A DNA stretch of 64,000 bases from Candidatus Planktophila versatilis (GTDB lineage: Bacteria > Actinomycetota > Actinomycetes > Nanopelagicales > Nanopelagicaceae): assembly GCF_002288105.1 (NCBI RefSeq), contig NZ_CP016774.1:62001-126000 (forward strand), read 5' to 3'. Shown piece after piece: positions 41,676 to 44,612 of the stretch. The notes under the pieces are model-generated. The model saw nothing but the letters and a program-made list of their open reading frames with translations. It did no database searches and was not told the DNA's origin. A program made the translations under genes and the position numbers. The stretch's first letter is position 1; every line of letters starts with the position of its first letter.

Positions 41676-42224
41676 CTATCGCTGAAAGCGGATAACTAAA
41701 TCTGGAGTTGCTGCTGCATGAAGTGGGATATCCCATTGCTCGCGCGGTAGATCTTCACTAGAGATTTCATCAGGATGAATAAGGCCAATTGAAAATGCAG
41801 AAAATTGTGGAAGTGCTCTGTCGTAATACCCACCACCTTGTCCCAGGCGATATCCACTGCGATCAATTCTGAGAGCGGGCACAACAATTACTTCAACATC
41901 GCCAAGATCGGTAACGACCGGACCTTTCGGTTCTGCAATTTTCTTCGCCTTTGAAATCTGACTTTGCTCGCCATCCCAGCGCACCCACTCAAGATCCTTA
42001 CCTGCTATTCGAGGCAGAAGCAGAATCTTTCCACTTTTAATCAGTGCCAGATTCAAGGCTGTTGTGTCAGGTTCATCTGCATAAGAGATGTAGCTTGCAA
42101 CAACTTTTGCTTTGTGAAACTCCTGTGAATCCGCAAGATGTTCAAAAGAGTGTTCTAGATAACGTTCACTTCGCTCACGACGGTAACGAGTACGAAGGCT
42201 GGCTTTTTCTTCGCTGATACCCAT
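41676..42224 (-). CDS. 5-formyltetrahydrofolate cyclo-ligase
   Basis: This 182-residue enzyme converts 5-formyl-THF to 5,10-methenyl-THF with ATP. N-terminal basic helix SLRTRYRRERS, ILLPRIAGKDLEWVRWDGE and the glycine-rich VPALRIDRSGYRLGQGGGYYDRAL (nucleotide and folate site) are intact. Its stop abuts the acyl-CoA dehydrogenase stop. It diverges from the MoeA-like gene, the same order as in other actinobacteria. Confidence 0.93.
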   Translation of the reverse strand: MGISEEKASLRTRYRRERSERYLEHSFEHLADSQEFHKAKVVASYISYADEPDTTALNLALIKSGKILLLPRIAGKDLEWVRWDGEQSQISKAKKIAEPKGPVVTDLGDVEVIVVPALRIDRSGYRLGQGGGYYDRALPQFSAFSIGLIHPDEISSEDLPREQWDIPLHAAATPDLVIRFQR

Positions 42225-42269
42225 GGAAATCCCCTAGAAATTAGTGCAGTGCAAGTAAGGTTAGTGATT

Positions 42270-43181
42270 ATGTCAGAAGCTGCGCGCGTAGATGAAGTTC
42301 TCGCTTCACTCTTAGAACTTTGTCGCCCCCTCGAGCCATTTGATATGCCTTTACTTGATGCCCACGATGCCACGCTTGCTGAAGATATCTTTGCCGGTGA
42401 GCGCTTAGTGATGAAAGCCGGTAGTCGTATCCGTTCTACCCAAATCGGATTAGCCGCATCAATCGGCCTTGATCACCTGCCCACACGACCACACCCACGA
42501 GTTGTTGTTATCTCAGCCGGCCCCGATCTGGTTGAACCGGGAGTTCCACTTAAGGCAGATGAAGAGTATGAAACAAATTCTTGGTTGCTCACTACTGCAG
42601 TGCGCGAGGTTGGCGCAGTTGCCTACCGCGTTCATTCAATCCCAGATGATGAATCCCAACTACAAGATGTGATTGAAGACCAACTAGTTCGCGCTGACCT
42701 CATTATTATCAGCGGTGAACGCCACGATGATTCCTTTGATCTCATTACAAGAACACTCGAAAAAATTGGTGAGATCAAGACTGTGGAGCTCTCCATCGAA
42801 TCAAGTGGCCGACACAACTTTGGCACCATTGGTCCAGATAAGACTCCGGTAGTGACACTGCCAGGAGATCCCATCGCTGCCTACATCTCATTTGAACTTT
42901 TGGTGCGCCCAATGATTCGCACCATGCTTGGAACAGCAACAATTCACCGGCCATCGCTGAAGGCAAAACTTGATAAGGCAATTACTTCCAAAAGTGGAGT
43001 TCGCTCCTACGTTCGAGCCGTACTCAGTGAAGACGGAAAATCTGTCACACCACTGAGTTCGCAAGATGAACAAGCAACCTTGTCAGATGCCAACTCACTC
43101 ATTGCAATTAGTGAGAGCGATACCAAACTTTCTGCCGGAGATTCTGTCACCGTAGTTGTGCTTGAACGCCGATATATTTAA
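42270..43181 (+). CDS. Reduced MoeA/gephyrin-like protein (Glp-like)
   Basis: This 303-residue relative of molybdopterin molybdotransferase MoeA is about 100 residues shorter than the family norm. After LLDAHDATLAEDIFAGE it jumps straight to MKAGSRIRSTQIGLAASIG. The SAMDGYA motif and all of domain II are therefore missing. In domain III, SGGxSxG has become SGERHDD and LPGNP is LPGDP. Catalysis of molybdate insertion is unlikely. In corynebacteria the gene at this locus is Glp, a MoeA-like FtsZ partner, and its membrane receptor GlpR is encoded nearby, as here. ATG 42270 follows AAGG. Confidence 0.8.
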   Translation: MSEAARVDEVLASLLELCRPLEPFDMPLLDAHDATLAEDIFAGERLVMKAGSRIRSTQIGLAASIGLDHLPTRPHPRVVVISAGPDLVEPGVPLKADEEYETNSWLLTTAVREVGAVAYRVHSIPDDESQLQDVIEDQLVRADLIIISGERHDDSFDLITRTLEKIGEIKTVELSIESSGRHNFGTIGPDKTPVVTLPGDPIAAYISFELLVRPMIRTMLGTATIHRPSLKAKLDKAITSKSGVRSYVRAVLSEDGKSVTPLSSQDEQATLSDANSLIAISESDTKLSAGDSVTVVVLERRYI

Positions 43182-43190
43182 GAGCAGATA

Positions 43191-43766
43191 ATGCATCCAA
43201 CTAAGCTCTCCGGAAGCGAAGTGACGTTGCGCCCCATGCGATATCGGGATAAATCGCAGTGGACCCAAGTCCGAGCAGAAAATCGTGAGTGGCTAGATCC
43301 TTGGGAAGCAACCTTGCCAAATATTCCTGCTGGCAGCCCGGCTTATGAAGATTCCAGCGTGCGCCCTACCTTTTTTCAAATGGTGAGTCTGTTTAGACGC
43401 GAAGCACGCGCTGGTCGTTCGTACTCATTTCTTATCTGGCATAACGAGAATCTGGTGGGTCAGATAACAATGGGGGGCGTCACCTACGGCGCCATGCGTG
43501 GGGCTCATATCGGTTATTGGATTGATAAGAACTTTGCCAACCGAGGATTTACCACCCAAGCGGTAGAACTCATCTCTGAATTTGGTTTCACCCAACTTGG
43601 TTTACATCGCATCGAAATCAATGTGCGACCTGAAAATGATGCCTCATGCAGAGTTGCAGAGAAAGCAGGCTTTGAATTCGAAGGATTTAAGAAGGCTTTT
43701 CTGCACATCGATGGAGCTTGGCGCGATCATAAATGCTTTGTTAAAACTAACGAATTAATCCGTTAA
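43191..43766 (+). CDS. RimJ/RimL-type GNAT N-acetyltransferase
   Basis: This 191-residue acetyl-CoA-dependent acetyltransferase has a GNAT fold. Substrate-domain RPMRYRDKSQWTQVR opens the protein. The acetyl-CoA region is HIGYWIDKNFANRGFTTQAVELISEFGF and ENDASCRVAEKAGFEFEG (the AxxGF of RimJ-like enzymes). It probably acetylates a protein N-terminus. In actinobacteria the gene lies between glp and glpR, the same as here. It starts nine bases after the MoeA-like stop. Confidence 0.92.
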   Translation: MHPTKLSGSEVTLRPMRYRDKSQWTQVRAENREWLDPWEATLPNIPAGSPAYEDSSVRPTFFQMVSLFRREARAGRSYSFLIWHNENLVGQITMGGVTYGAMRGAHIGYWIDKNFANRGFTTQAVELISEFGFTQLGLHRIEINVRPENDASCRVAEKAGFEFEGFKKAFLHIDGAWRDHKCFVKTNELIR

Positions 43767-43820: not shown

Positions 43821-44612
43821 ATGGCTTCAGGAATCATCTATTTGGCAATCATCGGGATGTGGGTTGCCTATTTTCTGCCCCGTTGGGTCCACAATAAAAA
43901 TGAATTTTCTGGAAAAAGCGTCGAACGTTATAAGAGCGCGCTACGAGTCGTAGCTAGCACTACACCGGGTGCCCAAATTGGAACCGGGGCCATTTACACA
44001 GATGTTGATCGTGCAGGACGAGTTGCCCAGCAACTCATGCGTCGCAGAATTGTTTTCCTCATTATTTCGACAACACTCATACTCACGACGGTAGGTGCAA
44101 TCATGCAAACATTCACATATGTAGCAATCGCTGTTCCAGCAACAGCCTTAGTTCTATACATCGCACATGTGCGACGTCAAACAGGTAGAGAACAGATTCA
44201 ACGACGCCGCGTTGATCAACTACATAAGCGAACCGAAGGTGTCTCACACACAAATCTTGCTGAAGTACTAACTAATAGGACAACAGAAGTTCATGTATCA
44301 AAAGAACACTGGATTCCATTTGCTGAACGTGAGTTAACGGGCGTTACCGTGCTACCTAAAGGAACGGCGCAATCACGTTCTGAGTGGCAACCAAATGAGG
44401 TTCCTGTTCCAACATATGTGAACGCGCCAAAGGCCATCACACCCAAGCGCATTATTGATCTCACAGAACCCGGCAAGTGGACAGATGAGCAAGAACGTCT
44501 AGAACGCGAAGCTTTAGCAGCAGCTGCTCCTTCACGAGATGAGATATTTGATCAGCAATTGGCCGATGAAGCGGTGCAGCGACTTCGCGATATCCGCGCT
44601 GCCAACGAATAA
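43821..44612 (+). CDS. GlpR-like membrane protein (putative Glp receptor)
   Basis: This 263-residue protein has an N-terminal helix (1-20, ending YFLPRWVHNK, the family signature). A basic region, two adjacent helices (about 75-118) and a charged cytosolic tail rich in Arg, Glu and Ala follow. The arrangement and position two genes after the MoeA-like gene match GlpR of corynebacteria, which binds Glp at the septum. Assignment is by synteny and topology rather than a catalytic motif. Confidence 0.72.
   Translation: MASGIIYLAIIGMWVAYFLPRWVHNKNEFSGKSVERYKSALRVVASTTPGAQIGTGAIYTDVDRAGRVAQQLMRRRIVFLIISTTLILTTVGAIMQTFTYVAIAVPATALVLYIAHVRRQTGREQIQRRRVDQLHKRTEGVSHTNLAEVLTNRTTEVHVSKEHWIPFAERELTGVTVLPKGTAQSRSEWQPNEVPVPTYVNAPKAITPKRIIDLTEPGKWTDEQERLEREALAAAAPSRDEIFDQQLADEAVQRLRDIRAANE

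Follow-up and report, generated by a model that had tools for sequence, protein, structure and literature searches.

A Glp-lineage MoeA paralogue without domain II in most genera of the freshwater Nanopelagicaceae

We confirmed that the gene at 42270-43181 of the window (the whole stretch of 64,000 nucleotides that was analysed, from the closed, 1.33-Mb chromosome of Candidatus Planktophila versatilis) encodes a MoeA paralogue of the Glp lineage that has no domain II, hereafter called the short Glp. With a probability of about 0.6, we take this protein to be a pure, non-catalytic adaptor of its lineage, anchored at the divisome by the membrane protein GlpR/SepX and with a changed partner surface. 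The features of the locus are the following, with the basis of each in brackets.

42270..43181, + strand: short Glp, a domain-II-less MoeA-like protein, 303 aa (ORF, Pfam, PDB alignment, AlphaFold, NCBIfam)
42270..42317, + strand: N-terminal segment of domain III, residues 1-16 (alignment to 8bve limits)
42318..42395, + strand: first half of domain I, residues 17-42 (alignment to 8bve)
42395..42396, + strand: junction of the domain II deletion, A42|G43 (alignment to 8bve)
42396..42488, + strand: second half of domain I, residues 43-73, with the first half the best conserved part in the short clade (alignment to 8bve)
42489..42938, + strand: domain III, residues 74-223, opening with the Pro-rich hinge 2 (P74, P76) (alignment to 8bve)
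42711..42731, + strand: SGERHDD in place of SGGxSxG (motif comparison)
42858..42872, + strand: LPGDP in place of LPGNP (motif comparison)
42939..43178, + strand: domain IV, residues 224-303, with the lowest conservation in the short clade (alignment, identity by domain)
43002..43052, + strand: shortened hairpin of domain IV, residues 245-261, counterpart of the FtsZ-binding hairpin of C. glutamicum (alignment, AlphaFold)
41676..42224, - strand: 5-formyltetrahydrofolate (FTHF) cyclo-ligase, conserved upstream neighbour (Pfam, synteny)
43191..43766, + strand: RimJ-type GNAT acetyltransferase, between glp and glpR (Pfam, synteny)
43821..44612, + strand: GlpR/SepX-like membrane protein, 263 aa, with hydrophobic stretches near 10, 86, and 106 (NCBIfam, alignment)
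44385..44480, + strand: conserved linear motif in the C-terminal tail of GlpR, WQPNEVPVPTYVNAPKAITPKRIIDLTEPGKW (orthologue alignment)

The open reading frame of the short Glp begins with ATG and encodes 303 aa, and the ORF listing holds an alternative GTG start upstream at 42249. Two Pfam families match above their cut-offs (MoCF_biosynth, 3.5e-12; MoeA_C, 5.4e-09). MoeA_N, which covers domains I and II, leaves a remnant: its best stretch corresponds to positions 139-160 of 160 and scores below the cut-off. The top NCBIfam model is Glp_gephyrin (NF045515, divisome protein Glp; 3e-79), matched in two stretches with 266.6 bits, below the curated cut-off of 475 bits, which full-length relatives exceed with the same model (508.7 and 543.1 bits). 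The closest PDB entries by sequence are 8bve and 8bvf, both of C. glutamicum Glp (E 2.4e-33). The initial annotation had proposed a clean domain loss within the lineage of the corynebacterial cell division protein Glp, and the NCBIfam match and the top PDB entries bear this out.

In C. glutamicum Glp, domain I comprises residues 20-45 and 146-181, domain II residues 46-145, domain III residues 1-19 and 182-331, and domain IV residues 332-417 (PMC10522489). We set the borders in the short Glp by alignment to the 8bve sequence combined with these limits. A42 corresponds to about residue 39 of 8bve and G43 to about residue 152, such that some 112 residues are absent (around 40-151 of C. glutamicum Glp), i.e., the whole of domain II and a few adjoining positions in domain I. 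The MoeA_N remnant, this alignment, and the predicted structure all agree with the deletion that had been read from the sequence. Domain II is indeed skipped, but because it splits domain I into two pieces, both sides of the junction belong to domain I, one to each of its halves; the initial annotation had the chain pass from domain I to the region before domain III.

None of the catalytic motifs of the MoeA insertase (SAMDGYA, SGGxSxG, LPGNP) is intact. SAMDGYA has gone with the deletion, and the other two were correctly described in the initial annotation as SGERHDD and LPGDP. Also lost are MQPGxPQG (SIESSGRHN instead) and, in domain IV, the GSH loop. Glp is characterised by two Pro-rich hinge regions. 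The prolines of hinge 2, equivalent to P182 and P184, are present in 37/37 short forms, P182 being missing from canonical MoeA. A proline at position 20, possibly part of the other hinge, occurs in 25 of the 37.

An AlphaFold model of the monomer, built from 59 window and locus sequences, predicts domains I, III, and IV with confidence (mean pLDDT 91.6, pTM 0.89). In the comparison with corynebacterial Glp that had been suggested at the outset, 8bvf (E 1.6e-28) and 8bve (E 5.7e-28) are the best fold matches and domain II is absent; other MoeA and gephyrin chains follow close behind, and the TM-scores do not distinguish between the open state of Glp and the closed state of MoeA. The model also matches E. 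coli MoeA (1g8l, TMq 0.87), with which it has the fold of domains I, III, and IV in common. The short Glp differs from that enzyme in having neither domain II nor the catalytic motifs, and its genome has no pathway for the molybdenum cofactor (Moco).

Of the 16 sampled genera of Nanopelagicaceae (acI freshwater actinobacteria), 14 have the short form. The exceptions are g40 and g42, with full-length proteins of 403-408 aa (genomes G119-G121 and G127; loci L113, L114, L115, and L116), which, unlike the short Glp, have domain II and the catalytic motifs intact. These are its nearest full-length relatives (44-46% identity) and lie in a shared neighbourhood. In a tree built on the shared columns, all 37 sampled short forms (37/37) make up one clade (support 100/100) that groups with the g40/g42 proteins (98/97), and a branch with 100/100 support splits the canonical MoeA paralogues of the family from the Glp side; C. 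glutamicum Glp itself stands outside the sequence set of this tree. The loss of domain II happened once: a single event is enough for the tree, and several independent losses were dropped as an explanation. The placement of two long rows (G118 and G147) is unsure, and domain II is missing there too.

Two genes downstream of glp, the best NCBIfam model for the neighbouring protein is SepX/GlpR (3.3e-30; 105.9 bits, below the curated cut-off of 150 bits). This protein aligns with the glp neighbours of other actinobacterial families, and its best family match, three hydrophobic segments, and conserved tail motif are all those of GlpR/SepX. With rimJ and glpR downstream, the window holds the synteny and co-occurrence of glp and glpR that characterise Glp. 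The motif, of the form W-P-x-x-VP-x-PTYV-x-AP ... R-x-IDLT-x-PG-x-W, is found in most orthologues from the outgroups to acI, within a tail that is otherwise variable. Losing the corresponding disordered tail of GlpR (IDR2) partly copies the deletion of glp in C. glutamicum. We infer that the motif docks Glp. One difference lies in the first cytoplasmic region of GlpR, which is about 50 aa long and basic here, whereas it is about 190 aa long and acidic in C. glutamicum.

The best match to the short Glp by both sequence and fold is C. glutamicum Glp (Cgl0883, 8bve/8bvf), described with GlpR (Cgl0885; Martinez et al. 2023, PMC10522489). The two have in common a co-localised glpR, a partner of the 3-TM type, the Pro-rich hinge 2, and eroded catalytic motifs. 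They differ in that the short Glp has no domain II, has a shortened hairpin without M361 and Y369, and comes from a genome in which Wag31 was not found. We therefore do not count it as a full Glp in the C. glutamicum sense: two of the features tested, the FtsZ-binding loop (S for M361, Y369 lost, loop shortened) and the four-domain architecture I-IV (domain II missing), are not those of that protein.

As an adaptor, the short Glp could have arisen and could work as follows. The starting point was probably an operon with the order galU-glp-moaC-mogA-rimJ-glpR. Its Moco genes would have left the locus in the common ancestor of most Nanopelagicaceae, where glp would also have lost domain II in a single event. 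The remaining domains I, III, and IV should still make a homodimer of the MoeA type, which should bind the cytoplasmic tail of GlpR/SepX, probably through the conserved tail motif. Such binding would recruit Glp to the FtsZ/SepF divisome at the membrane. The protein should be unable to transfer molybdenum or to form gephyrin-type SDII filaments. A useful comparison is the gephyrin E domain from which SDII was deleted, a MoeA fold without domain II that keeps dimerization and receptor binding and loses filaments and clustering (PMC12441120). By this precedent, the loss of domain II should end enzyme activity and filaments and spare the dimer and the binding of the receptor. The gephyrin variant is engineered and of vertebrate origin, whereas the short Glp is a natural, conserved state in bacteria.

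The alternative that survives best, and that we consider unlikely, is the reading of the initial annotation, an ordinary corynebacterial Glp, which binds the C-terminal peptide of FtsZ via the hairpin of domain IV at the dimer interface and couples FtsZ to GlpR. The C. glutamicum FtsZ peptide pairs with strand 360-363 of Glp, its contacts being V338, L343, L360, M361, Y369, L370, and F414, and the deletion of M361-L370 abolishes the binding of both FtsZ and GlpR (PMC10522489). At the equivalent positions the short Glp has L, D, L, S, a gap, S, and V, the alignment being uncertain within the loop. The hydrophobic residues at 338, 360, and 414 would suit this alternative, as would the hinge 2 prolines in all short forms and the FtsZ tail EIDVPDFMK, which resembles the conserved CTD; the tail does not discriminate, because it serves SepF as well. 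The polar residues at 343, 361, and 370 and the loss of Y369 argue against it, as does the model of the hairpin, whose strands have 8 + 4 residues versus 11 + 6 in the model of the full-length g42 protein. The tyrosine is kept in most outgroups and in 4/4 full-length g40/g42 proteins, and no tyrosine is among the commonest residues listed at that position in the short forms. M361 is also not conserved in the outgroups, and the length of the hairpin loop varies from 7 to 11 residues.

The distribution of conservation points the same way. Within the short clade, pairwise identity averages 0.74-0.76 for domain I, 0.64 for domain III, 0.36 for domain IV, and 0.19 at the tip of the hairpin, versus 0.51-0.52, 0.60, 0.44, and 0.34 in the outgroups; the two groups differ in depth, and only the shift between domains is meaningful. 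By this measure, constraint has shifted off the FtsZ-binding domain in the short clade. The initial annotation had concluded that the fold is kept only for the non-enzymatic role and had raised the retention of the surface that binds the FtsZ C-terminus. The non-enzymatic part of this proposal fits well. The surface is eroded, with the shortened hairpin, the loss of Y369, and the three polar positions, and a simple coupling to FtsZ of the corynebacterial type is unsupported in view of the eroded hairpin, the low conservation of domain IV, and the failure to find Wag31 in Nanopelagicaceae.

FtsZ and SepF are both encoded in the genome of the window, in the order ftsZ-yfiH-yggS-sepF-yggT followed by ileS in reverse (locus L164; G000:C1:516000-530000). 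In other actinobacteria, divIVA usually stands after sepF-yggT. At the PF05103 cut-off, DivIVA/Wag31 was found in 0/40 genomes of Nanopelagicaceae, versus 9/9 outgroup actinobacteria. A DivIVA protein query of 66 Nanopelagicaceae genomes gave two weak matches. The weak DivIVA matches in a few genomes of the family span the later part of the profile and not its N-terminal start; we took them as chance coiled-coil similarity. MreB is strong in all 21 of the Nanopelagicaceae genomes tested. In C. glutamicum, Wag31 is the known binding partner of GlpR. The literature that we searched contained no published account of the absence of DivIVA in Nanopelagicales, which is no proof that none exists. One tentative elaboration of the GlpR-anchored adaptor, for which the odds are somewhat below even, is that in this family without detected DivIVA/Wag31 and with MreB, the short Glp and GlpR/SepX serve the divisome through a new surface on domains I and III and not through the hairpin, and that the related genera have preserved an ancestral protein that was Moco enzyme and Glp in one.

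Several findings count against the adaptor model as such: the hairpin that C. glutamicum needs for binding FtsZ and GlpR is eroded, domain IV is less conserved than in the outgroups, Wag31 was not found, and the short Glp and GlpR both score below their NCBIfam cut-offs. A function unrelated to division (e.g., the binding of a ligand by domain III), with the adjacency of rimJ and glpR as an ancestral relic, would agree with the strongest conservation lying in domains I and III and not in IV, including residues specific to the short clade (I54, A62, P71, W105, H122, and D200). We regard it as slightly less likely still than the corynebacterial type, since the synteny with glpR has held across genera despite the loss of the intervening genes, and GlpR and its tail motif are conserved too.

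The neighbourhood shows which genes were lost. The g40 locus runs FTHF cyclo-ligase (reverse), a gene of the size of galU, full-length glp, moaC, mogA, rimJ, and glpR, and g42, where glp likewise lies next to moaC, matches it as far as its short contig extends. We take the second gene to be galU from its size and the known actinobacterial order. In the genera with the short Glp, moaC and mogA are missing there, and rimJ and glpR come immediately after glp in the loci that extend far enough. Family searches of the genome of the window, prompted by the question of whether it has other Moco genes, found no MoaA, MoaC, MogA, or second MoeA/PF00994 protein. Among Nanopelagicaceae genomes with a completeness of 95% or more, a second PF00994 gene is missing from 41/41 without MoaC, and 24/25 with MoaC have at least three; because these genomes are related to one another, a Fisher test on the counts yields no clean probability. 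A separate, canonical MoeA about 385-410 residues long is among the extra PF00994 genes in the sampled short-Glp genomes with MoaC. In the g40 genomes, which have MoaA, MoaC, and MogA, the full-length, motif-intact Glp/MoeA is the only MoeA found; a third PF00994 protein in G119 is CinA-like, as read from its sequence and its recA neighbour. Bacteria with Glp are stated to have at least two copies of MoeA (PMC11733289), and g40, with one Glp/MoeA found, departs from this.

It is very improbable that the short Glp still works as a molybdenum insertase or within a minimal Moco pathway. The MogA-like fold of domain III is kept, but domain II, which makes half of the substrate site (PMC12441120), is missing, the SGGxSxG, LPGNP, MQPG, and GSH loops are altered, the genome is without MoaA, MoaC, MogA, and canonical MoeA, and the relatives with MoaC have a separate canonical MoeA. 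A residual enzyme was rejected on the motifs and the genome content. Two genomes deserve mention in their own right. G220, without MoaC and with the short Glp only, has a match to the MoaA family (G220:C17:472-828), and the canonical MoeA of locus L131 (G225:C30) lies in an open frame of 647 codons, longer than its relatives, possibly a fusion or an upstream extension.

The short Glp is under purifying selection, with pairwise dN/dS among congeners of 0.007-0.042 (dS being near or above 1 in most pairs). A decaying gene or an assembly artefact, which a domain loss in a streamlined genome might suggest, was ruled out by these values, by the finding of the same deletion across 14 genera, in assemblies made independently and in closed chromosomes, and by the confident predicted fold.

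The loss of enzymatic function and of the active site in Glp has already been published (Megrian 2025, PMC11733289). For a MoeA without domain II, its single origin, and the contrast with relatives in a Moco operon, we found no report in the literature searched, which does not prove that there is none. One family thus holds both a motif-intact, full-length Glp/MoeA in a Moco operon and disarmed short forms beside the same receptor, a natural experiment in the passage from metabolic enzyme to cytoskeletal adaptor. As a natural counterpart of gephyrin without SDII, the short Glp offers a test of the need for domain II in bacterial scaffolding. The retention of Glp and GlpR/SepX where DivIVA/Wag31 was not found separates a role independent of Wag31 from the published one, in acI bacteria that are among the most abundant in fresh water and whose division has hardly been studied.

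Outside Nanopelagicaceae, in a family with small genomes (f5; loci L107 and L108, genomes G091 and G064), Glp has kept domain II and lost SAMDGYA and LPGNP, and G091 is without MoaA. The enzyme site has here been lost a second time, independently and by a different route.
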